From the IMG/VR virus record IMGVR_UViG_3300046516_001288, positions 1 to 22,849 of that record: a stretch of 22,849 nt of DNA; one strand, given 5' to 3'. The position numbers were made by a program, and so were the translations under genes. This DNA is from a virus. The notes beneath the pieces were generated by a model. That model did not search any database, had not been told where the DNA came from, and was given only the letters and a program-made list of their open reading frames with translations. Below, in pieces: positions 7,693 to 21,123 of the stretch; the first letter of the stretch is position 1, and each line of letters starts with the position of its first letter.

Positions 7693-7769
7693 TCTTTTTT
7701 TCACCGACCGTGAACCGCCGGGATATCAGCCTGTCTTATTGATCCTGCGGAAGCTCGGCCAACCCCTGC

Positions 7770-8037
7770 CTATTGATCCGCCTGCGAAGCCTGATCCGCG
7801 CGCCATATTGCCTTCGCCAATCCCGAAGGCGCCTCTGAAACAATCCCGCGCAAAATCCACTCCGTCGAAACCCCGTAGCGGTCGGAAAAGCATTTCATGA
7901 ACCAATGGGCGGGATAATGGTCGCCGCGTAGAGACGCCCAGTTCACGCGCGACCTCCGCCTGGGTCTCGCCAATCGCCTCGATCGCGACCCGCAGCCGGC
8001 GGCCTATCTCGACCTTATAAATCACCTCGTCACTCAT
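7770..8037 (-). pseudogene. Frame-disrupted CI-like (XRE-family) repressor
   Basis: From the ATG at 8037 the first 36 residues (IGRRLRVAIEAIGETQAEVARELGVS) read as the start of a helix-turn-helix repressor. That frame then continues to 7726 with unrelated sequence. In another frame the protein resumes with NWASLRGDHYPAHWF and YGVSTEWILRGIVS, which is the usual continuation in alphaproteobacterial XRE repressors of this type, and ends at 7770. In family members I recall, about six residues including the recognition helix separate GVS from NW; here they are missing. This fits a short deletion of 3n+2 bases, perhaps about 29, removing the recognition helix and shifting the frame. A divergent Cro-like gene and matching operators show that it sits in the repressor position. 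It has no ribosome site, only a promoter close by. Confidence 0.7.
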
Positions 8038-8044
8038 GGCCGGG

Positions 8045-8074
8045 AATATGGGACGGAATGTAGATTCCCTGCAA
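8045..8074 (-). promoter_or_regulatory. Promoter for the repressor gene
   Basis: Read leftward, TTGCAG (8074-8069) is followed by an 18-base spacer and CATATT (8050-8045). The -35 overlaps the imperfect operator O3. The start codon at 8037 is only 7 bases past the -10, so the message would be leaderless or nearly so. Confidence 0.4.
8059..8073. promoter_or_regulatory. Operator O3 (imperfect)
   Basis: TGTAG-attcc-CTGCA, one mismatch from the TGCAG-N5-CTGCA core. Its centre (8066) is 42 bases, four helical turns, from the centre of O4. Confidence 0.55.
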
Positions 8075-8091
8075 GACAGGAGATGGATGGG

Positions 8092-8119
8092 TTGACCGTA
8101 TGCAGCAGTCCTGCATACT
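8092..8119 (+). promoter_or_regulatory. Rightward promoter PR
   Basis: TTGACC (8092-8097) is followed by 16 bases and CATACT (8114-8119). Operator O4 fills the spacer and the -10. Transcription would start at about 8126, on or next to the ATG of the Cro-like gene. Confidence 0.5.
8098..8118. promoter_or_regulatory. Operator O4, perfect 8-bp inverted repeat
   Basis: GTATGCAG-cagtc-CTGCATAC is a perfect 8-base inverted repeat with the same 5-base spacer as the other three sites. It is the longest match of the set and lies 7 bases before the start codon of the Cro-like gene. Confidence 0.8.
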
Positions 8120-8125
8120 CAGGTC

Positions 8126-8335
8126 ATGCCAGATTATGACGCCCCCCTGATCAAGGTTCTTCAGAAGATCGGCCCCAGTCGGTTGGCTGAACATCTTGGG
8201 ATCGTCCCCTCCGCTGTTACCCAGTGGCGGCGGGTGCCCGCCAGACACGTCCCGCGCGTGGCCGCGCTCACCGGCATACCAGGATGCGAAATCCGTCCGG
8301 ACATGTATCCGTGCGAGGAAGCCGAAACCGCGTGA
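8126..8335 (+). CDS. YdaS/Cro-like DNA-binding protein
   Basis: The product has 69 residues. A helix-turn-helix is visible at about 17-36 (PSRLAEHLGIVPSAVTQWRR), followed by a VPARHVPRVAALTG helix and a short acidic tail. This matches the YdaS/Cro group, which typically acts as the early repressor opposite a CI-type gene. It is divergent from the disrupted repressor gene, and operator O4 overlaps its promoter, so it probably binds these operators and controls itself. Only a weak CAGG lies near the start, which fits a leaderless message. It is the first gene of the rightward early region. Confidence 0.8.
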   Translation: MPDYDAPLIKVLQKIGPSRLAEHLGIVPSAVTQWRRVPARHVPRVAALTGIPGCEIRPDMYPCEEAETA

Positions 8336-10384: not shown

Positions 10385-10414
10385 GCCTGACGTAATTTGT
10401 CAAGGAGAACCGCC

Positions 10415-11314
10415 ATGAACGCCATCACGAAACCCCGGTCGAAGCTGCTCGCCGTCGAGCCGGAGGCCGTCGAGCCCGGACACCCCACGGTCCTGGTCTA
10501 CGGTCCTCCTGGGGTCGGCAAGACCTGGGTCAGCCTGGATTTCCCCGCCGTTTATTACATCGACACCGAGGGCGGCGCTGATCTCGACCACTACCGCGCC
10601 AAGTTGCGCGCGTCCGGTGGCGCCTATCTCGGCCCCGATCAGGGTAGCCTGGATTTCGACGTGGTCATCAATCAGATCCAGGCACTGGCCACGGAGCAGC
10701 ACAATTATCGCACCGTCGTCATCGACTCGATATCGAAACTTTGGAACGTGGCGCTGTCGGACGAGCAGGAGCGGCTCGGCGCCAAGGACGCGTTCGGCGC
10801 GTTCAAGAAACTGCCCACGCGGCAATTCCAGTCGCTGATCAAATGGATCAACCGCCTGGACATGAACGCGGTCTTTATCGCGCATCAGAAAGACCTCTGG
10901 GGCCTGAACGACCAGAAGCAGCGCGAAATGATCGGCTACTGCGCCGACGCGCAAGATAAGCTTGAGTACGACCTGCATCTGTCGCTTCGCATCGCGAAGC
11001 TTGGTACCAGCCGCTATGCCTATATCGGCAAGTCGCGCCTGCCGACGTTCCCCGAGGGCGACATGTTCCCGTGGTCATACGAGAACTTCGCCGAACGCTA
11101 TGGCCGCATCGTCATCGAGCAAGAGGCGAAACCAATCGTGCTCGCCGATGAAGGCCAGATATCCGAACTGAGCCGGCTGCTGTCGATCGTGAAAATGCCC
11201 GACGACTGGGCCGAGAAAGTCTTCAAGAAAGCCGGCGTCGAGGCCTGGACCGAAATGGACGCGGACAAGGCAGCCAAGGTCATCGAAAATCTCAGGTCGC
11301 GTCTGTCCGCCTGA
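10415..11314 (+). CDS. Sak4-like RecA-core ATPase (recombinase)
   Basis: The ATG at 10415 has AAGGAG 7 bases upstream; a TTG at 10397 opens the same frame but would include that site. The product has 299 residues. Walker A is GPPGVGKT (30-37). The aspartate of Walker B is D104 in TVVIDSISKLW, and DTEGG and IAHQKD are further motifs of the RecA-like core. Proteins of this AAA_24/Sak4 type are phage single-strand annealing or exchange proteins that work with a phage SSB. The next gene is SSB-like, which supports that pairing. The C-terminal about 60 residues are helical (LSRLLSIVKMPDDWAEKVFK) and may bind partners. It is the first gene of the rightward replication operon. Confidence 0.8.
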   Translation: MNAITKPRSKLLAVEPEAVEPGHPTVLVYGPPGVGKTWVSLDFPAVYYIDTEGGADLDHYRAKLRASGGAYLGPDQGSLDFDVVINQIQALATEQHNYRTVVIDSISKLWNVALSDEQERLGAKDAFGAFKKLPTRQFQSLIKWINRLDMNAVFIAHQKDLWGLNDQKQREMIGYCADAQDKLEYDLHLSLRIAKLGTSRYAYIGKSRLPTFPEGDMFPWSYENFAERYGRIVIEQEAKPIVLADEGQISELSRLLSIVKMPDDWAEKVFKKAGVEAWTEMDADKAAKVIENLRSRLSA

Positions 11315-11331: not shown

Positions 11332-11835
11332 ATGCACGTTAAACCCGTCACACCCGAACAAGCGGCGGCGGCCGCGACTTCATTCGAACCGTTGCCCCCT
11401 GGGGATTACGATTTCTCGATCTATCAGGCGGAGGACACACGCTCCGCCAAAGGCGACGATATGCTGAAGCTGACGCTGCACATCCTGCTTGGCGACGGCA
11501 GGCATCGCACCGTCTTCGATTATGTTCTCGGCACTGACAACTGGGCCTGGAAGGCCCGCCATCTGGCCGAGGCCATCGATATGGTCTCGCAATACGAGAA
11601 CGGTGAGCTCGATCCAGACTTCCTGGAGAGCCGTGTTGGGCGCCTGCGGCTGAAGATCAAGCCGGCCAACGGGCAATACGGCGCTGGCAACCAGGTAGTG
11701 GACTACCTGCCGCGCGAGGCCACGGAAGCGGCGCGATCCACGGCGGGACAACGCACACCGGCGATCAATCGCGCGCCGGTACCGTCACGGGAAAAGGTTC
11801 TGGCTGGTGATATTGATGATGACATACCATTTTGA
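11332..11835 (+). CDS. SSB-like single-stranded-DNA-binding protein (DUF669-like)
   Basis: The product has 167 residues, with GGAAGGAAAC before the ATG. The body (PPGDYDFSIYQAEDTRSAKG, then LKLTLHILLGDGR and VFDYVLGTDNWAWK) looks like the beta-rich fold of phage DUF669-type proteins. A flexible Pro/Arg-rich stretch leads to the C-terminal tip DDDIPF at 162-167, which is the same acidic tip that E. coli SSB uses to recruit partner proteins. It follows a Sak4-like ATPase, matching the usual Sak4-SSB pair. The fold is inferred, but the tip is directly visible. It is followed by the helicase gene after 12 bases. Confidence 0.72.
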   Translation: MHVKPVTPEQAAAAATSFEPLPPGDYDFSIYQAEDTRSAKGDDMLKLTLHILLGDGRHRTVFDYVLGTDNWAWKARHLAEAIDMVSQYENGELDPDFLESRVGRLRLKIKPANGQYGAGNQVVDYLPREATEAARSTAGQRTPAINRAPVPSREKVLAGDIDDDIPF

Positions 11836-11847
11836 TACGGTATAGCA

Positions 11848-13347
11848 ATGGATGAGTTTTGCTCCCTCGACGATTTTTGGCACGTCAGCCAGATCGTCGA
11901 GGAAGGACTTGGTTCCCCTTATCTGACCGCGTGGGAAAGGGGGTTCCTGGATGATATTCAGGAACGCATCGACCAGCATGGCGAGAACGTCCGCCTGTCC
12001 ATTGCTCAGATCGAGACACTGGATGCCATCGAAGAGAAGTTGGAGGTTGAGCAAGAAGCGCCGGAGACACCTCCTCCGGCGGAGACCAGCCCCCTCGGCA
12101 TCACGCTGAACGAGGATCAGGCCCGCGCGCTGGCGGAGATTGAAGCGTCGATCATCATGCGCCGGCCACATCTGCTGACCGGCCATGCTGGCTCCGGCAA
12201 GACCACGCTGATCCAGGTGTTGGCCACGCGCTGGGGGACCAAAAAGGTCGTGCTCTGCGGTCCCACGCACAAGGCGTGCGAGGTGTTGAGCCGCAAACTG
12301 CGCGCCGCCGGTATCAAAATCCCGGTCTGCACCATTCATTCCCTGTTGAGCCTGCGGCCAAAAGCCGAAGGTGCCCGACAGGTCTTCATCCGCCGCCCCA
12401 AAGCACCGCCGGTCGTGGCCGACCTCGTCATCATCGATGAGGCGTCCATGCTCGACGCCTCCATGATGCGCCACATCGAGCTTTGGCTGGCCGAGATCGC
12501 CGTGGTGTTCGTGGGCGATCCGGCGCAACTCCCGCCCGTGGGCGAGGCCGGCAGCCGCTGCTTCGCCACGGTCCCCGAAAGCCATCTGCGCGGCATCGTG
12601 CGGCAGGCGGAAGGCAATCCCATCATCGCCGCCTCGGCCGTCGTGCGCGCCTCCCAGGCGGCCGTCGTGCCCGATTGGTCGTGGGCCACTCCCCTTCGGA
12701 TTGGCGATACCGGGATTTTCAATCCAGGCCATGAGGTCAACGCATGGCTGAAGCACGCCTTCACATCGGCCGCCTTCGTCAGTGATCCCGACACGTTCCG
12801 CTATTTGGTCTGGCGCAACGATCGGGTGGACTGGTTCAACGCCCGCGTGCGCCGCTGGCTGGGCCACGATCCGGCGGTGCCATTCGTTTCCGGCGAACGC
12901 GCGCTGATCCGCACTCCGCTCGTCGTCAACAAGGAAATCGTGCTGTCGACCAACGAAGAAGTGACGGTGGTGTCGATCGCCGCCGGCCAACACCTGGAAA
13001 TTCCAACCTGGGAGGTCCGTGTGGTCTCGGCGGGGGGTAATGTCGTGGATATCCACATTGTCCGCGACTGGATGGAGCACAAAGCGCGGCTGGACACGCT
13101 GGCGCGCGCGGCCATCGGCGATACCGCCTCGTGGGAGGACTTCCACGCCTTCAAGGCCGAGTTCGTCGACGCGCGGCCACTTTACGCGCTGACCACGCAT
13201 AACGCGCAGGGCTCGACGTTCCGCCATGTGTTCATCGACGTGCCGGAGTTCCGCGACTGGGTCAAACGCGCGCCGGACGAAGGCAAGAAGGGACTGTATG
13301 TCGCCATAACCCGTGCCTCGCACACCGTGACCTTGGTCGGTTCCTGA
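11848..13347 (+). CDS. SF1 DNA helicase (RecD/Dda-like)
   Basis: The product has 499 residues. Residues 1-70 form a helical domain (LTAWERGFLDDIQERIDQHG...) that is also seen attached to other phage proteins. Then comes an acidic/Pro linker and a superfamily 1 helicase core. The core has Walker A GHAGSGKTT (112-120), GPTHKA, Walker B IIDEASM (195-201), GDPAQLPPVG (223-232), a QGSTF motif V at about 450 and YVAITRAS motif VI (484-491). This layout is typical of RecD2/Dda-type 5'-3' helicases. It probably unwinds DNA for replication or recombination beside the Sak4-SSB pair and the primase. No ribosome site is strong. A long antisense frame over this gene is an artefact of base composition. Confidence 0.85.
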   Translation: MDEFCSLDDFWHVSQIVEEGLGSPYLTAWERGFLDDIQERIDQHGENVRLSIAQIETLDAIEEKLEVEQEAPETPPPAETSPLGITLNEDQARALAEIEASIIMRRPHLLTGHAGSGKTTLIQVLATRWGTKKVVLCGPTHKACEVLSRKLRAAGIKIPVCTIHSLLSLRPKAEGARQVFIRRPKAPPVVADLVIIDEASMLDASMMRHIELWLAEIAVVFVGDPAQLPPVGEAGSRCFATVPESHLRGIVRQAEGNPIIAASAVVRASQAAVVPDWSWATPLRIGDTGIFNPGHEVNAWLKHAFTSAAFVSDPDTFRYLVWRNDRVDWFNARVRRWLGHDPAVPFVSGERALIRTPLVVNKEIVLSTNEEVTVVSIAAGQHLEIPTWEVRVVSAGGNVVDIHIVRDWMEHKARLDTLARAAIGDTASWEDFHAFKAEFVDARPLYALTTHNAQGSTFRHVFIDVPEFRDWVKRAPDEGKKGLYVAITRASHTVTLVGS

Positions 13348-13350
13348 TCG

Positions 13351-14193
13351 GTGGCATCCATCCCTTCAGACATCGAACGCGCCGCTCTGGTGGGCTTCAA
13401 GGTGTTTCCAACGTCCCGTTCCAGTCGTGCCGCCGCTTATCCCGGCGCGCATCTGGCGGCGACCGACGACCTGAACCAGATCGCGCGTTGGTGCCGGGAG
13501 TATCCGCGTTGCAACTGGCGCCTCATCTTCGGCCCCTCGGGGCTTTGGGGACTCGATGTCGATGCCGCCGGGCCAACCCACGCGGCGGACGGAATCGCGG
13601 CGTTGCGAGCGCTGGTCGCCGTCCATGGCGCCTTGCCGCCACGCCCCACCTCGCTTTCCGGCGGCGGTGGTTACGGGCTGATATTTCGCCACAATGGCGA
13701 GCGGATCATCGGCAGGACCGGCTACCCGGCGCCAGGGATCGATCCACGCCGGGGTATGCTGTCCCTCACAATCCCGCCCTCCATCCATATCGTGACCCGC
13801 CAGCCCTACCGATGGGCGCGCGGTTGGGCGCCGTGGGATGTGGCGCCCCCCATCGCGCCGGGCTGGCTGGTCAGGCTGGTCGAGATGCCGCCCGAACCAA
13901 AGCGGGTGGCAGTGGTGATCGATACCTCGGACCAGGCGCGCCGCCGGCTGTATCGCGCGGCCCTGGCGGTGATCGACGCGCCGCCGGGGTCGCGTAACGA
14001 AACCCTGAACCGACGGGCCTACCAGATCGGCCGGATGATCGGCGCCGGGTTGCTCGGCGAGATGGAGGCGGTCGAGGCCCTCTACGGCGCCGCGCGACAG
14101 GCCGGGCTGGACCACGTGGAGACACGCGACACCATCCGCTCCGGGATCAGCTCGGGCCGGCGCAATCCCATGGGGGCCGGCGATGGAAGATGA
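13351..14193 (+). CDS. PrimPol-domain primase-polymerase
   Basis: The GTG at 13351 begins 3 bases after the helicase stop, and no better start is visible. The product has 280 residues. The N-terminal two thirds match the bifunctional primase-polymerase domain. ALVGFKVFPT opens the fold, GLDVDAAG at about 68-75 carries the acidic metal-binding pair, and LSGGGGYGLIFRH at about 105 is the conserved SGGxG motif. The last 90 residues are helical, with RRAYQIGRMIGAGLL and TIRSGISSGRRNP, typical of the region that follows in such primases. It overlaps the VapE-like ATPase by 11 bases, so primase and helicase functions are split over two coupled genes. Confidence 0.8.
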   Translation: MASIPSDIERAALVGFKVFPTSRSSRAAAYPGAHLAATDDLNQIARWCREYPRCNWRLIFGPSGLWGLDVDAAGPTHAADGIAALRALVAVHGALPPRPTSLSGGGGYGLIFRHNGERIIGRTGYPAPGIDPRRGMLSLTIPPSIHIVTRQPYRWARGWAPWDVAPPIAPGWLVRLVEMPPEPKRVAVVIDTSDQARRRLYRAALAVIDAPPGSRNETLNRRAYQIGRMIGAGLLGEMEAVEALYGAARQAGLDHVETRDTIRSGISSGRRNPMGAGDGR

Positions 14194-15535
14194 CGAGCCG
14201 CCACCCACGGATGCGGTGGATAACGTGGTCCCGATCACCGCCGCCCCAAAACCGTCCTGGGTCGGTCGCCTGCACCACACCAGGGAAGGCGAGGTCCACC
14301 CGACCTTGGCCAACGCGCTGATCATCATGGCGCACGATCCAAGGTTCCGAGGCACGCTCGGCCATAACCTGTTCACCGACCGACGCATGCTCATGCGCGA
14401 GGCGCCGCCATCGGAGGACAGCGGGTTCCTGATGCCAGGACCCTATCCACGCTTCTGGCAGGATGAGGACATCTCGCTGGTGCAGGCTTACATGCAACGC
14501 GTCTGGGCACCCCGGTTCCAGCGTAACACGATCTCCGACGCGATGGCCGTCACCGCCATGTCGCACCCATTCCATCCCGTGCGCGACTGGCTCGATACAC
14601 TGAAATGGGACGGAACCAAACGGCTGGACAACTGGCTGACGAACGCCTTCGACGCCCGCAACGACGAGATCCAGGGCACCGACGCATGGCGACAACGCCA
14701 CGGCTATTTCCAGGCCATCGGTGCCAAATTCCTGATCGCCGCCGTGCGCCGGGTGCGTTGCCCTGGTTGTAAATTCGATTCCATGCTGATCCTGGAAGGG
14801 CCGCAACGCATCGGCAAAAGCACCGCGCTCCTGACCTTGTTCAGCCGTGAATGGTTTTCCGACGCGGTGCCCCTGGATCTCGCCAACCGGGATGCCGCCA
14901 TCGCCCTGCATGGCCTGTGGTGCCTGGAATTCGCTGAGATCGAGCACCTGGTCAGAACCGAGGTGGAGACAATCAAGGCGTTCCTGTCCCGTTCGGTCGA
15001 TCATTACCGGCCAGTGCATGGGCGCGACTTCGTCGACCGGCCACGCCAGGGCGTATTGGCGGGGACCACGAACAGTGACGACTATCTACGGGATCAGACT
15101 GGCAACAGCCGCATGTGGCCGGTGCCGTGCCAGTCCGTGGATCTCCACTGGCTGGTCGTCAACCGCGATCAATTATGGGCCGAAGCCGCCGCGCGCGAAG
15201 ACAGCGGGGAAAACCTCTGGCTGGATGACCAGGATTTACAGAACGCGGCCAGTGAAACCACGGAATCCCGCATGTCGGAAGAAGTCTGGCAGCCAGCGGT
15301 CGTCCGTTGGCTCACCGACCCCGCGACCAATCTGGTCGAGCCAGTAACCTCCTCCCGAGTGCTCGAGGAAGCCATCGGGATGCCAAAGGAACGGATGACC
15401 AAGGCAGCCTCCATGCGGGCAGGCGCCGTCCTTCGCTCCCTCGGGTGGGAACGGCACTGGGAATCAACACCCGAAACCAGTGGAAAAAAAGGCCACTCCA
15501 CCAGGGTCTGGCGACCGCCCAAAGAAGGCACGTGA
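14183..15535 (+). CDS. VapE-type replicative ATPase/helicase
   Basis: The product has 450 residues. Walker A is GPQRIGKST at 206-214. Upstream, HPVRDWLDTLKWDGTKRLDNWL is the signature of the virulence-associated E (D5-like) ATPase family. A Cys pair CPGC lies at about 193-196. Downstream, LWCLEFAEIEHL carries the Walker B acidic residues, VETIKAFLSRSVDHYR follows, and GTTNSDDYLRDQTGNSRMWP holds the sensor and arginine-finger region. The C-terminal 100 residues look like a winged helix for DNA binding (RMTKAASMRAGAVLRSLGW). It probably unwinds DNA at the origin together with the PrimPol protein. The nearby repeat array supports this. Confidence 0.85.
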   Translation: MEDDEPPPTDAVDNVVPITAAPKPSWVGRLHHTREGEVHPTLANALIIMAHDPRFRGTLGHNLFTDRRMLMREAPPSEDSGFLMPGPYPRFWQDEDISLVQAYMQRVWAPRFQRNTISDAMAVTAMSHPFHPVRDWLDTLKWDGTKRLDNWLTNAFDARNDEIQGTDAWRQRHGYFQAIGAKFLIAAVRRVRCPGCKFDSMLILEGPQRIGKSTALLTLFSREWFSDAVPLDLANRDAAIALHGLWCLEFAEIEHLVRTEVETIKAFLSRSVDHYRPVHGRDFVDRPRQGVLAGTTNSDDYLRDQTGNSRMWPVPCQSVDLHWLVVNRDQLWAEAAAREDSGENLWLDDQDLQNAASETTESRMSEEVWQPAVVRWLTDPATNLVEPVTSSRVLEEAIGMPKERMTKAASMRAGAVLRSLGWERHWESTPETSGKKGHSTRVWRPPKEGT

Positions 15536-15560
15536 TGAGGCACGTGATGAGGCACGTAAT
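15527..15560 (+). repeat. Tandem GGCACGTGATGA repeat at the VapE 3' end
   Basis: Two perfect 12-base copies (15527-15538 and 15539-15550) are followed by a partial third (15551-15560). Each full copy contains the palindrome CACGTG. The VapE stop codon lies in the first copy. It borders the putative origin. Confidence 0.75.
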
Positions 15561-15562
15561 TG

Positions 15563-15813
15563 AGGTGGTGGGAAAATGTCTCGGATATCTCGTGCCCAGA
15601 GAAAGGTGGTGGAATCACCGAAAAAGACCGCCAATTCCACCACCTGTATATATATATAGATAGGTGGTGGTATAGGTGGTGGAATAAAAAACGTATGCAT
15701 ATCAATCATAACACCACCTCCACCACCTCCACCACCTGTTACGCATTGCTTACGTGGGTGTGCCTGCAAGAACCCTATAGAAAAGACTTCAGAAATGGCT
15801 GTGGAGGTGGTGG
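15563..15813. repeat. Candidate replication origin: AGGTGGTGG iterons and TA tract
   Basis: Nine copies of AGGTGGTGG are visible. Forward copies start at 15563, 15604, 15662, 15674 and 15805. Reverse copies lie at 15637-15645, 15711-15719 (one mismatch), 15720-15728 and 15729-15737. Inverted pairs flank short loops: AGGTGGTGGAAT at 15604-15615 pairs perfectly with 15634-15645. Copies at 15637 and 15662 flank TATATATATATA (15647-15658). The copies at 15662 and 15674 form a 12-base tandem, and the three reverse copies form a 9-base tandem. The segment 15536-15919 holds no convincing gene and is much more AT-rich in places than its surroundings. Repeats plus an easily melted tract next to primase and helicase genes are typical of an origin, where an initiator binds. 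The function is inferred. Confidence 0.65.
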
Positions 15814-15830
15814 GGTGGATGGTTTTCGAC

Positions 15831-15869
15831 ACAAAAAAAACCGCCGCCAAGGGGGAAGGCGGCGGCGGT
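15831..15869 (-). terminator. Rho-independent terminator for the leftward accessory operon
   Basis: ACCGCCGCC (15840-15848) pairs with GGCGGCGGT (15861-15869). Read leftward, the hairpin is followed by a run of eight or nine T before GTG. It lies 51 bases past the stop at 15920. On the plus strand no T-run follows, so it acts in one direction. Confidence 0.85.
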
Positions 15870-15919
15870 CGGAGTGGATCGTGGTGACAGTCGCGAGGCG
15901 GCCCCGCGACGGACGGAGA

Positions 15920-16516
15920 TTAACCCAGAACGAAGTTCAGGCCCATGGCTGACAGGTGCTCAAGCGCCACGGCGGCGGACGCGCGTTGCTCGGCGGTGGG
16001 CGGTTCGGGTAGCAGGACGTCAACCCACCGGCCCTCGCTCGCGCCGGTCAGGTCCAACGGCCTGAACCCGGTCACCTTGCCCGTCGCGTCCCGCATGATC
16101 TCCCGCTCCTCATGCGCCGTTCGCCGTTCGTCGCCGTCACGATAGACAACCTGCGCCATGACGATCTCGACACGATCCTCGGCCTCACGGATCGGGACCG
16201 CGTCTATCCGCGCATCATGTTCGGCCTCGGTCTCGCCAAACCGCCTCGGCACGTCGCGCATCCATGCCTCGGTGATGAAAGCGAAGCCCTCAGCGTCATG
16301 GGCGGCGCAATACGCGCGCAGGTAAAGCGCCACCGTTTCCTTCCCCAGGCCAGGCGGCGGCGTGCAGACGACGCGCCGATCGCCAGGGAGGTGGATCACC
16401 AGGATGGTCGCGCATGATCCCTGTTCGAGGATCATGCGCCTGGCGAACTCAATGTCGAAGCGCACCTGCCTGGCCCACCGCTCGGGTCCGCGTGCCCGCT
16501 TTGGTTTCGCGCTCAT
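15920..16516 (-). CDS. 198-residue hypothetical phage protein
   Basis: The preferred start is the ATG at 16516 in an ATGA overlap with the upstream stop; GAGGGA lies 11 bases before it. The open frame continues 55 codons further, but only across the upstream HTH gene. The protein begins MSAKPKRARGPERWARQ and then has a mixed alpha/beta body (FARRMILEQGSCATILVIHL, VALYLRAYCAAHDAEGFAFI) containing TEAWM. Two segments rich in Glu and Arg follow. There is no catalytic motif, and I do not recognise the family with certainty. It is the last gene of the five-gene leftward operon, just before the terminator. Confidence 0.65.
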   Translation of the reverse strand: MSAKPKRARGPERWARQVRFDIEFARRMILEQGSCATILVIHLPGDRRVVCTPPPGLGKETVALYLRAYCAAHDAEGFAFITEAWMRDVPRRFGETEAEHDARIDAVPIREAEDRVEIVMAQVVYRDGDERRTAHEEREIMRDATGKVTGFRPLDLTGASEGRWVDVLLPEPPTAEQRASAAVALEHLSAMGLNFVLG

Positions 16517-16809
16517 GACTCGCGATCCCTCAGTGACGGGGCGGGATGCGCGTGGCGGAATGCCGCGAGACCCTCGAGCCACGCCAACAGCGCCGGAGGG
16601 ACAGGCGAGCGACCCAGGCCCCAGTTCCGCGTGGTCGACGGGCTGGTCCGTAGTTCGACGGCCAGGGTACCATACGTCCACCGCAACGCCCTCAGGGCCG
16701 CCTGGAGACGCTCAGGGGGCGCCGGGAGGGCAGAGGGCTCTGGAGGGGCCTGCTCCCGCTCCAGGGCCTGATGCGCGGGGATCAGGGGGCGGAGAGGGCT
16801 GCCGCTCAC
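16513..16809 (-). CDS. Mini helix-turn-helix protein, copy 1
   Basis: This starts with a GTG at 16809 in a GTGA overlap with the upstream stop, and GAGG lies 4 bases before it. The product has 98 residues. The first 30 residues are rich in Pro and Ala. Then comes a domain with ALRALRW, a turn region around AVELRTSPSTTRNWGLG and the signature PPALLAWLEGLAAF. The domain is about half identical to that of the gene at 17313-17531 in the same operon. The pattern fits a small HTH protein whose DNA-recognition helix is STTRNW. A regulator role is inferred. Confidence 0.65.
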   Translation of the reverse strand: MSGSPLRPLIPAHQALEREQAPPEPSALPAPPERLQAALRALRWTYGTLAVELRTSPSTTRNWGLGRSPVPPALLAWLEGLAAFRHAHPAPSLRDRES

Positions 16810-17312: not shown

Positions 17313-17531
17313 TCAGGCGGCGGGTCCAGGTGGTGGCGGATTGGCGTTGACGAAGGCCGCGAGCAGCTCGAGCCACTCGAGCAAGGCGGGCGGCGGATCG
17401 TTCTGGCCACTCAACCAACGCCGGATCGTTCGTTCATTGATGGCCAGCATCTCGGACAATTCTCGCGGACCCCAGCGCAGGCCCCGCAAGGCGAGGGAGA
17501 AGCGCGCCGCGCTCGACAGGTGGCTGCTCAT
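17313..17531 (-). CDS. Mini helix-turn-helix protein, copy 2
   Basis: The ATG at 17531 is in an ATGA overlap with the upstream stop; an open frame further upstream lies over that gene. The product has 72 residues. FSLALRGLRWGPRELSEMLA, with NERTIRRWLSG as recognition helix, reads as a classic XRE-like helix-turn-helix. PPALLEWLELLAAF follows and the end is Pro-rich. It is the paralogue of the 98-residue protein downstream but lacks the Pro-rich N-terminus. Its HTH is closer to consensus than the other copy. It may regulate this operon. Confidence 0.7.
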   Translation of the reverse strand: MSSHLSSAARFSLALRGLRWGPRELSEMLAINERTIRRWLSGQNDPPPALLEWLELLAAFVNANPPPPGPAA

Positions 17532-18379: not shown

Positions 18380-18495
18380 TGATTTTCTTTCATGAATGTT
18401 TTCGATGAAACGGGCGATTTTGATCGAGGGATTGACAAATGGCGTCAGGTCAGTGTCATTGACCCATAAATCATGGCGTGGGATTCAGTCTCAGG

Positions 18496-18903
18496 ATGAG
18501 TGCCAGCACGCAAGAACAGCCCAGAAAGGCTTTCGGGGTTCGCGGAGGCCTGTCCAGCGGATCATGGAAGCCGGGTCAGTCGGGCAATCCGAACGGCCGC
18601 GCCAAGCCGCTCGTGGACGTTGCCGCCCTCGCGCGTAAGCATGGGCCGAAAGCCATCGAGATAGTCGCCGGCATCATGATGCGGGACAAGGACAGCAAGG
18701 TCAGGCTGGCGGCCGCTGTCGCGTTGTTGGATCGTGGGTTCGGCCGGCCCAAGCAGGAAATTGAGACGACGGGCAATCAGACGATTGAGCTGCACTTAGT
18801 GGCCGCGCGCGTGATCTCACAGGAGCTGCTGGCCTCGGCCGATGCGCCGCCTGTCATCGAGCATGCGGCGGTGACGAGCGATACCGATGCGCCGACGGAA
18901 TGA
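18496..18903 (+). CDS. Small terminase subunit-like protein (DUF5681-type)
   Basis: The ATG at 18496 directly follows TCAGG; a GTG at 18478 would add six residues. The product has 135 residues. The motif SSGSWKPGQSGNPNGRAK near residues 19-36 is the hallmark of DUF5681-type proteins, often found directly before large terminase genes and believed to act as small terminase subunits. A helical region follows (AALARKHGPKAIEIVAGIMM, VRLAAAVALLDRGFGRP). In this window a few tiny genes separate it from TerL. If it is the small subunit, it should bind the packaging start site, perhaps within or near its own gene. The start of the rightward packaging operon is here. Confidence 0.65.
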   Translation: MSASTQEQPRKAFGVRGGLSSGSWKPGQSGNPNGRAKPLVDVAALARKHGPKAIEIVAGIMMRDKDSKVRLAAAVALLDRGFGRPKQEIETTGNQTIELHLVAARVISQELLASADAPPVIEHAAVTSDTDAPTE

Positions 18904-19012
18904 GTATGTCGTGCCATTTCGCGAGCCATGCGCGAACGAATCGGGAACAACTAACGCTCATACAAACCTCGGATGCATCCGTAAACGACCGATTGATCAG
19001 GTGGCCGCATGA
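18887..19012 (+). CDS. 41-residue hypothetical protein
   Basis: The frame MRRRNEYVVPFREPCANESG continues to IDQVAA and overlaps the end of the terminase-like gene by 17 bases. Its stop overlaps the next ATG (ATGA at 19009-19012). A competing frame from 18900 runs through to 19229 without a stop, but coupling and sequence style favour this reading. No function is visible. Confidence 0.45.
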   Translation: MRRRNEYVVPFREPCANESGTTNAHTNLGCIRKRPIDQVAA

Positions 19013-19065
19013 CTTATGCTACGGACACAGGGGTTATCCGCAGAAGCGTGACGATAGCGGTATGA
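19009..19065 (+). CDS. 18-residue peptide
   Basis: The frame MTYATDTGVIRRSVTIAV has ATGA overlaps at both ends (19009-19012 and 19062-19065). Its reality rests only on those overlaps. It may instead be a translational bridge between its neighbours. Confidence 0.3.
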   Translation: MTYATDTGVIRRSVTIAV

Positions 19066-19229
19066 CAAAGCGTCGTTGTCTGGCGTGTTGGTCATGGTTC
19101 AGCGCCAGTGGCCCGGACGTCACCGTGTGTCCCGCCTGCCGAGCACACGCAAGACATACACACGTAAGACATACATACGTGCACATGTCAGCGCCGGCCG
19201 CATGCCCCCCCACCAAGGCCGTCTGGTGA
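19062..19229 (+). CDS. Zinc-ribbon small protein
   Basis: The preferred start is the ATG at 19062 in an ATGA overlap. The product has 55 residues: MTKRRCLACWSWF, a short loop and CPACR form a four-Cys zinc ribbon. Compact proteins of this type are frequent in phages near the terminase genes. The tail contains two copies of a RHT(H/Y)V repeat encoded by a 15-base tandem duplication. A longer frame from 18900 (109 residues) is less likely. Confidence 0.55.
   Translation: MTKRRCLACWSWFSASGPDVTVCPACRAHARHTHVRHTYVHMSAPAACPPTKAVW
19151..19180 (+). repeat. 15-bp tandem duplication in coding sequence
   Basis: AAGACATACACACGT (19151-19165) is followed directly by AAGACATACATACGT (19166-19180), with one difference. 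It keeps the reading frame of the zinc-ribbon protein. Confidence 0.8.
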
Positions 19230-19295
19230 TGGCACTGGCCCCCCTCCCAAATTCCCCACCAAAATCCCACAACATCGTTACGCAATGTCAACGTC

Positions 19296-19478
19296 ATGAG
19301 TGACATGTATCCACGGCGTTGTGATTACCATTTGGGTGATGATTGGTGGCCAGGGCGGGAGACTGTTGAGGTTATCGTTCCGGAGGAAGAGCGTGCGATT
19401 GATACCGGGCTGCTTGATCAGTTTGGTGTTCCCATCAGGCGTTACCCGGTGCGTCGTCCGTTGGGTTTCTGTCGGTGA
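19296..19478 (+). CDS. 60-residue conserved-looking phage protein
   Basis: The product has 60 residues: MSDMYPRRCDYHLGDDWWPG, then ETVEVIVPEEERAIDTGLLD and QFGVPIRRYPVRRPLGF. The GLLDQFGxPIxR...RRPxGF pattern is one I associate with a small protein common in phage genomes beside terminase genes; its role is unknown. The stop overlaps the next GTG (GTGA). The 66-base gap before it (19230-19295) holds nothing recognisable. Confidence 0.65.
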   Translation: MSDMYPRRCDYHLGDDWWPGRETVEVIVPEEERAIDTGLLDQFGVPIRRYPVRRPLGFCR

Positions 19479-19672
19479 ACGAGAGCACGCGGCAGTTACT
19501 GGCTGGCATACCCGAGAAGTTGATCAAGGCTTTGCCGGCTGGTTTCACGGTGCTCATACTTCTCAACCTGATGTTCATGGGGGCGTTGACGTATGCCGTC
19601 AGCCACAACACCGAGGCGCGCAACCAACTCCTGAAGACGATCGTTGAGCGTTGCCTGGACAAGCCGGGATGA
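19475..19672 (+). CDS. Small single-pass membrane protein
   Basis: The GTG at 19475 overlaps the upstream stop (GTGA). The product has 65 residues. A basic amphipathic start (GIPEKLIKALPAG) leads into a membrane helix at about 23-43 (FTVLILLNLMFMGALTYAV), then a polar helix (HNTEARNQLLKTIVERCL). This is a common small phage membrane protein type located before TerL. Holin-like activity is possible but unproven. The stop overlaps the TerL ATG (ATGA). Confidence 0.65.
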   Translation: MNESTRQLLAGIPEKLIKALPAGFTVLILLNLMFMGALTYAVSHNTEARNQLLKTIVERCLDKPG

Positions 19673-21123
19673 TCGACACCGAAGCACCTCCGATCAACTG
19701 GGCCGAGGCGATAGCGGCGTCTGGAAACCCGTTTCTGACGGCGATTGGCAGATATGCGCGGGCGCCGACGGCGTTTGTGCGGGAGGTTCTACAGGTTGAG
19801 CCTGACCCGTGGCAGCGGGAGGCATTAAGGGCTGTCGCGCGTGGCCACACGCGGATCGCGATCAGGAGCGCGCATGGTTGTGGCAAGACGGCGCTGGCAG
19901 CCTGGTTGATGGTTTGGTTCTGCAACACGCGTGTGCCGTTCAAGGTAGTTTGCACGGCGCCGAGCGCGCCGCAGTTGTATGACAGTTTGTGGAGTGAGAC
20001 GACGAAGTGGTTCAGTGCGTTGCCCGAGGGGTGGCGTCAGTTATGGGATTTGCAATCGGATCATATCAGGTTGAAGTCGAACGCTGACTGTTTCATCAGC
20101 GCGCGGACCAGCAGGCGGGATCAGCCTGAGGCGCTTCAGGGCGTTCATAGTGACCATGTGTTGTTGGTTTGTGATGAGGCGTCGGGCATTGAGGAGAATG
20201 TTTACGAGGCCGCTGTTGGCAGCATGAGCGGGCCTGGGGCGATCACGGTTTTGATTGGCAATCCGACGCGCGCCACGGGCCATTTCTGGCGTGTGATGAC
20301 GATGGAGACGGATCGTTGGTTCTGTCTCAAGGTGAGTGGGCTTGATAGTCCGAGGGTTGATCCCCGGTTCATCGAGGAGATCGCGCAGCGGTATGGTCGG
20401 GACAGCAACGCGTTCCGCATCAGGTGTCTGGGTGAGTGGCCCACGGCAGAGGATAACACGCTAATACCGGTGGATTTGATTGATGGGGCGATGGTGCGTG
20501 ACGTGCCGATTGATCTCACCGCGACGTCCGTGTGGGGCGTCGATGTGGCTCGTTTTGGTTCGGACGCCAGCACGTTGATCAAGCGGCGTGGGTTGGTTGT
20601 CGAGGACATGCCGCGTTCATGGCATCAGTTTGACACGATGCAGTTGGCTGGCGCCATCAAGGCTGAGTATGACGCGGCGTTGAACAGCAAGCCGTCGTTG
20701 ATCGTGATTGACGTGATTGGCATTGGTGCCGGGGTCGTGGACCGGTTGCACGAGCAGAATTTGCCCATTCTTGGCCTTAACGTGGCCGAGGTCGCCAGTG
20801 TCACCGGGCGGTATGCGCGGCTTAAGGATGAGTTGTGGATACGGATGAAGGAGTGGTTGGCGGGACGTAATGTCCGGCTGCCCCGGCACGACCGGTTGCG
20901 CGACGATCTCGCGGCGCCGCGTTATGCCTTTCTGAGTGATGGTCGGTTGCAGGTCGAGAGCAAGCAGATGATGCGGGCGCGTGGTCTGCCCAGCACGGAT
21001 TATGCCGACGCGTTGTGTCTGACGTTCTGTCAGCAGGGCCTGGGGATTGGCAGTGGCATGACCAGTGGGTTGCATGACAGCCGCCCCTTTGGGATGGCCT
21101 TCCAACCGGGGGAGTTCGTGTAG
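19669..21123 (+). CDS. Terminase large subunit (TerL)
   Basis: The start at 19669 lies in an ATGA overlap; six upstream codons in frame belong to the overlap region. The product has 484 residues. ATPase motifs are SAHGCGKTALAAW (Walker A, K73 and T74) and VLLVCDEAS (Walker B, D169 and E170), followed by the coupling segment LIGNPTRATGHF. The RNase H-like nuclease domain has D292 in WGVDVARFG, D348 in IVIDVIGIG and the third acid among D444/D447 in STDYADAL. All expected motifs are present, so the enzyme looks intact. It cuts concatemeric DNA and pumps it into the capsid through the portal, which is encoded two genes downstream. Confidence 0.93.
   Translation: MIDTEAPPINWAEAIAASGNPFLTAIGRYARAPTAFVREVLQVEPDPWQREALRAVARGHTRIAIRSAHGCGKTALAAWLMVWFCNTRVPFKVVCTAPSAPQLYDSLWSETTKWFSALPEGWRQLWDLQSDHIRLKSNADCFISARTSRRDQPEALQGVHSDHVLLVCDEASGIEENVYEAAVGSMSGPGAITVLIGNPTRATGHFWRVMTMETDRWFCLKVSGLDSPRVDPRFIEEIAQRYGRDSNAFRIRCLGEWPTAEDNTLIPVDLIDGAMVRDVPIDLTATSVWGVDVARFGSDASTLIKRRGLVVEDMPRSWHQFDTMQLAGAIKAEYDAALNSKPSLIVIDVIGIGAGVVDRLHEQNLPILGLNVAEVASVTGRYARLKDELWIRMKEWLAGRNVRLPRHDRLRDDLAAPRYAFLSDGRLQVESKQMMRARGLPSTDYADALCLTFCQQGLGIGSGMTSGLHDSRPFGMAFQPGEFV

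Follow-up and report, generated by a model that had tools for sequence, protein, structure and literature searches.

A repeat array behind a VapE-family helicase gene, read as the origin of replication of a tailed, probably temperate phage

Some satellites and phages carry their replication origin next to the gene for a replicative helicase, and the origin is built of short repeats. PICI origins contain two sets of iterons around an AT-rich region and support the replication of plasmids (PMC6092414). SaPI origins have opposed repeats that load two head-to-head hexamers (PMC9894130), and recognition of the origin by the C-terminus of the SaPI Rep protein was already known (PMC7581432). The isolated C-terminal domain of Cch2, from SCCmec, likewise binds a putative origin (PMC7581432). 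In Streptococcus phage Sfi21, inhibition of the phage by a plasmid-borne fragment of the origin has been reported (PMC6356513).

The locus described here lies in a virus record of 22,849 bases, the whole of which is referred to below as the window. Its segment 15563-15813 very probably serves a tailed phage, itself probably temperate, as the origin of replication, with the adjacent VapE-family helicase as the initiator.

The repeat array and its genomic setting

In the array AGGTGGTGG occurs eight times exactly and once with a mismatch at one base; five of these copies are on the plus strand and four on the minus strand (Table 1). The initial annotation had described nine iterons in both orientations around a TA tract, together with 9- and 12-base direct tandems and a perfect 12-base inverted pair, all in non-coding DNA. 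These features are confirmed, the nine iterons being eight exact and one near-exact: the 9-base tandem begins at 15711, 15720 and 15729, the 12-base tandem at 15662 and 15674, and the inverted pair occupies 15604-15615 and 15634-15645. Iterons flank both AT tracts, and the array lies in the gap between the end of vapE at 15535 and a convergent gene (15920-16681, minus strand), whose product of 253 aa has no Pfam or PHROG match. The repetition far exceeds chance, since the commonest 8-mer of 15536-15835 occurs 9 times and the commonest 9-mer 8 times, against maxima of 3 and 2 for any 8-mer and any 9-mer in 2000 dinucleotide-preserving shuffles. Apart from stretches that overlap the array, no 300-base stretch elsewhere in the window rises above 3 copies. 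One isolated exact AGGTGGTGG at 17328-17336, outside the array, is probably a chance occurrence. When viral contigs were searched for paired AGGTGGTGG, more than 100 matches came up; they were presumed to be coding sequence rich in glycine (GGT GGT GG) for the most part and were dropped.

The gene for an AAA_24 / Sak4-like protein opens the replication module, and vapE closes it directly before the array. The DUF669 protein has a counterpart in Sfi21 (Sfi21p37) that is annotated as a single-strand DNA binding protein. Membership of VapE in its family (PF05272) is clear, with 225 bits against a curated cut-off of 25. The only PDB match to the profile of the window's VapE is 7pds (6 chains, E 1e-56), an entry named 'Similar to D. 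nodosus vapE', which we take to be a SaPI Rep. The record also encodes DNA ejection proteins, a repressor-like protein and the large subunit of terminase, and the carrier is therefore a tailed and probably temperate phage; the ejection proteins suggest the podovirus type.

Several elements around the iterons were also compared with L005, L007, L008 and L011, the relatives whose intergenic DNA can be aligned with that of the window. The TATATA run of the first AT tract is kept in all of them, and the conserved non-iteron blocks in 15684-15710 and 15738-15804 are possible host-factor or priming sites. A tandem of GGCACGTGATGA across the vapE stop codon has no counterpart in these relatives. The hairpin of the convergent gene's terminator, also present in L005 and L008, likely marks the right edge of the origin region. 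Rfam and tRNA scans gave no matches, and GC-skew has no clear switch at the array in this 22.8-kb fragment.

Table 1. Replication genes, iterons and flanking elements of the window
Feature	Position	Strand	Remarks
AAA_24 / Sak4-like single-strand annealing ATPase	10397-11314	+	Pfam AAA_24 E 1e-21; PHROG Sak4-like E 8e-22
DUF669 protein	11332-11835	+	Pfam DUF669 E 1.4e-5
SF1 helicase (AAA_30, UvrD_C_2, PIF1-like)	11848-13347	+	Pfam AAA_30 E 2e-24
PrimPol primase-polymerase	13351-14193	+	Pfam Prim-Pol E 5e-22
VapE-family helicase, proposed origin-binding initiator	14183-15535	+	Pfam VapE-like_dom E 8e-67; PHROG DNA helicase E 1e-89
VapE C-terminal winged helix, proposed iteron reader	15335-15532	+	about residues 385-450; AlphaFold2 models
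GGCACGTGATGA 12-base tandem, 2 copies and 1 degenerate	15526-15561	+	spans vapE stop codon
Iteron 1	15563-15571	+	exact AGGTGGTGG; in register with L005, L008, L011
Iteron 2	15604-15612	+	exact AGGTGGTGG; in register with L005, L008, L011
Iteron 3	15637-15645	-	exact AGGTGGTGG; in register; L005 and L008 have GGTGGTAAC here
AT tract 1, proposed melting site	15646-15661		88% A+T in a neighbourhood of about 63% G+C; (TA)6 at 15647-15658
Iteron 4	15662-15670	+	exact AGGTGGTGG; in register in L005, L007, L008, L011
Iteron 5	15674-15682	+	exact AGGTGGTGG; 12 bases from iteron 4; in register in L005, L007, L008, L011
AT tract 2	15684-15710		78% A+T; AT[AT]TCAA core, conserved in origins of alignable relatives
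Iteron 6	15711-15719	-	one mismatch, AGGTGGTGT on its strand; in register with relatives
Iteron 7	15720-15728	-	exact AGGTGGTGG; 9-base tandem; in register with relatives
Iteron 8	15729-15737	-	exact AGGTGGTGG; 9-base tandem; in register with relatives
Spacer	15738-15804		conserved columns GCATTGCTTACGTGG..., AGAAAAG in alignable relatives
Iteron 9	15805-15813	+	exact AGGTGGTGG; in register with L005, L008, L011
Intrinsic terminator of convergent gene	15837-15871	-	hairpin -20.2 kcal/mol, z -4.3, then U-run

Rewriting of the repeat word in relatives

Thirteen viral contigs encode close relatives of the window's VapE, and three of them are essentially the same phage as the window. Relatives whose VapE is 50-75% identical have an array at the same place. 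The diverged relatives lack the exact AGGTGGTGG array at this place, and most of them carry an array with another word; in one (L009), a single exact AGGTGGTGG copy lies within an array of AGGTGGTAG. Among the alignable relatives, L005, L008 and L011 have an iteron at 9/9 window positions with orientation unchanged, and L007 has one at 6 of the nine. The words used are GGTGGCTACA, GGTGGATACA or GGTGGTAACA. GGTGGTGG occurs eight times in the window, GGTGGCTAC five times in L005, GGTGGATAC three times in L007 and GGTGGTAAC seven times in L011, and the window word is absent from the arrays of L005, L007 and L011. Because nine dispersed copies have been replaced in step, a single trans-acting reader appears to force their agreement. 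At position 3 of L005 and L008, a single copy of GGTGGTAAC, the L011 word, stands inside the GGTGGCTACA array, and from its sequence it is perhaps a relic of an earlier iteron word.

The initial annotation had regarded absence of the repeats from close relatives as an argument against an origin. What the alignable diverged relatives lack is the word; an equivalent array is present, and in the closest relatives it keeps the layout of the window, so the origin reading withstands this comparison.

Arrays of this kind extend well beyond the close relatives. A search with an alignment as query retrieved 79 viral loci, some of them already in the first set, as well as 7 loci from genomes. In a strict test, which compared a 420-base stretch at the stop of vapE with shuffles by its exact 7-mers, 22/40 loci had a significant array directly 3' of vapE (p <= 0.005), and in 17 loci the array was the most repeat-dense stretch of the whole locus. 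About half of the VapE loci thus pass, so that a clear array does not stand behind every VapE gene. Arrays after vapE, with further words, persist down to about 30% identity; words found by a more tolerant search include GGTGGTATA, GTGTTGGA, GTGGTTAC, GTTGCCAT and AAGGGACG, and the order of two plus, three minus and then one plus copy recurs often in these wider loci. A genome of Belnapia moabensis (Acetobacteraceae) encodes a VapE relative of 49% identity with its own array. Such arrays stand behind vapE in phages of many kinds and in varied genomic surroundings.

Exchange of iterons with the Rep C-terminus

Natural swaps of the iterons occur in relatives of Staphylococcus phages. Loci L052-L093 and L101-L156 include close relatives of phages such as 2638A, in which PrimPol and VapE form one chain that is about 34% identical to the window's VapE. 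The Rep proteins of L055 and L057 are identical at 741/745 residues before the last 70 and at 60/70 within them. Their iterons, AAGGGACG in L055 versus AAGTAACA in L057, are wholly different, and the non-iteron flanks are near-identical. Along the locus, DNA identity stays near one level except in a stretch that extends from about -200 to +400 relative to the Rep stop, where it drops to about 50%. With L056 included, nearly identical PrimPol-VapE proteins are accompanied by three different iteron words. As judged from these alignments, a cassette of about 600 bases, holding the Rep C-terminus and the iterons, is exchanged between Staphylococcus phages. In addition, a tree was built from the remainder of the protein. 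L103 and L105 do not differ at all in the residues that went into it, yet their iterons differ, and along its branches the iteron type has switched at least 7 times. Comparison of the relatives thus establishes, for DNA and protein sequence, the position of the array, the conservation of its layout, the in-register rewriting of its word and the exchange of iterons together with about 70 C-terminal residues of Rep.

The C-terminus of the window's VapE contains a predicted winged helix. In the AlphaFold2 model of the C-terminal block, pLDDT is about 90 over the winged-helix core, with helix H3 at 407-419 and wing strands at 423-428 and 439-444; the model of the whole protein is poor (mean pLDDT 49), and the C-terminus alone was taken from it. 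A Foldseek search of the C-terminal domain against the PDB gave no significant match, the best (E 0.08) belonging to weak winged-helix-like ones only. In the Staphylococcus clade, only columns 445 and 456 among 224 variable Rep columns of 40 distinct sequences track the iteron type perfectly, in a test that takes both the choice of columns and the correlation from one data set, with many near-copies in it and with neighbouring columns linked by cassette exchange. Both columns lie in the C-terminal wing, and each of their residues occurs with a single iteron type: column 456 is the variable residue of YG-K/L/V/R-Q, and column 445, at the wing tip, is E/Q/S,T/D. The next-best column, 458, is two residues from 456. 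For the window's clade of about six close systems, the variability of segments was measured. Of the five segments compared there, the wing varies most, with 37% pairwise identity against 64-77%, and the recognition helix has 71%; the wings of the Staphylococcus and window proteins are matched by fold position only. This pattern suggests that it is the wing that determines which variable half an iteron has. A tentative generalization, which falls somewhat short of probable, is that throughout the VapE family two or three residues of the wing hairpin fix the variable half of the iteron and that phages change the identity of their origin by swapping the cassette of about 600 bases, with no change to the nine-place layout. 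If so, such a wing code would let co-infecting phages and satellites escape cross-talk between origins, and iteron words could become predictable from protein sequence. The natural swaps, in which near-identical Reps meet different iterons, provide material for studying how a self-loading helicase chooses its origin.

These swaps also bear on the identity of the reader, which the initial annotation had left between VapE and PrimPol. Its proposal of an origin is sustained with VapE in that role, given the place of the array, the in-register rewriting and the cassette exchange, and PrimPol is disfavoured because near-identical PrimPol-VapE chains, bar the last 70 or so residues, carry different iterons. 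An origin whose iterons are read by PrimPol or another protein of the module, with VapE only unwinding the DNA, is accordingly very improbable. PrimPol, which forms the N-terminus of the Rep chain in the Staphylococcus phages, stays near-identical there across different iterons, the perfectly correlated columns lie in the C-terminal wing only, and Staphylococcus iterons such as AAGGGACG have no GTG. Points in its favour are the operon that PrimPol and the other module genes share with vapE, the PrimPol-type pRN1 protein, which primes at GTG and needs a region downstream of its gene (PMC4234260), and the presence of GTG in iterons of the window's clade. Equally improbable is an operator for a repressor or another phage regulator in place of an origin: although short repeats in both orientations can bind regulators, and lysogeny-type regulator candidates are encoded at 7726-8335, the array lies between the 3' ends of convergent genes and away from promoters, no sigma-70-like promoter being found at 15400-16000, and in relatives its repeats and the C-terminus of Rep change together. 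A site for partition, packaging (pac/cos) or recombination can hold short repeats too and is still less probable, as no tool result favours it, the terminase genes are about 3 kb off at 18478-21123, and the array recurs behind vapE in so many settings.

With the array read as an origin and VapE as its initiator, a sequence of events can be proposed. VapE would be made from the replication operon just upstream of the array, and its C-terminal winged helix would bind the nine oppositely oriented iterons. It would then assemble as two opposed hexamers around 15646-15661 and 15684-15710 and melt these AT tracts, and PrimPol would make primers, with the DUF669 and Sak4-like proteins and the SF1 helicase assisting. 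Iteron binding, melting, loading of a double hexamer and actual replication in this phage are what we infer by analogy. Inhibition of the phage by a plasmid-borne origin fragment would directly test the origin reading, as with Sfi21.

Comparison with described origins

The initial annotation had suggested a new origin layout, and this part of it does not hold. Opposed repeats around AT-rich DNA 3' of a Rep helicase are the published layout of SaPI and PICI elements (PMC6092414, PMC9894130, PMC7581432), and the Sfi21 origin is annotated at the equivalent position. SaPI/PICI rep-ori units consist of a primase, a Rep helicase and an origin directly 3' (PMC6092414, PMC7581432, PMC9894130), and the window has the same order, with PrimPol at 13351-14193, VapE at 14183-15535 and the array, as putative origin, from 15563. 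The opposed iterons around AT-rich DNA are common to both. The reader in SaPI/PICI elements is the Rep C-terminal domain, and cassette exchange and column correlation in relatives indirectly suggest that the VapE C-terminus may have this role in the window. The carriers differ, as SaPIs and PICIs are satellites and the window belongs to a tailed phage that encodes terminase and ejection proteins of its own; a PICI itself is ruled out by the encoded terminase large subunit and DNA ejection proteins. The Rep proteins of SaPIbov1 (DUF927) and SaPI5 (Primase_Cterm) also belong to helicase families other than VapE (PMC7581432). Cch2 resembles the VapE proposal in being a helicase that binds, with its C-terminal domain, repeats lying directly behind its own gene; it differs in having three AAGTG iterons only, in its helicase family and in that replication in vivo was not shown (PMC7581432). 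A classical iteron plasmid origin was rejected, since direct repeats in one orientation are replaced here by five plus and four minus copies, and a RepA-type initiator without a helicase domain by the adjacent VapE helicase.

Among phages, Staphylococcus phages of the 2638A type share with the window a VapE-family Rep and iterons directly downstream, and differ in the fusion of PrimPol to VapE, an AT-rich genome, other words and an identity of about 34%. The module of Sfi21 consists of AAA_24, helicase, DUF669, PrimPol and D5 helicase, followed by an annotated 'origin of replication, 302 bp non-coding region, phage inhibitory sequence'. In this origin (L315:6488-6785), a long AT tract is surrounded by AGTAAC/GTTACT repeats of both orientations. 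The five kinds of genes are the same as in the window, and so are the last two before the repeats; the order of helicase and DUF669 is swapped, and the repeat word differs. The final helicase of Sfi21 is of D5 type (Pox_D5/DUF5906), not VapE, and has no BLASTP similarity to the window's VapE, so that the likeness is one of kind, not of family.

No description of in-step rewriting of VapE iterons, or of a correlation with wing residues, was found in the open literature, and the rewriting and the wing correlation are the interesting part that goes beyond the known layout. The layout itself is not new and is of a kind known from the SaPI/PICI rep-ori and the annotated Sfi21 origin. On the evidence of the aligned relatives, an arrangement familiar from satellite islands and a few phages is here held fixed, and its word is rewritten at all nine places.
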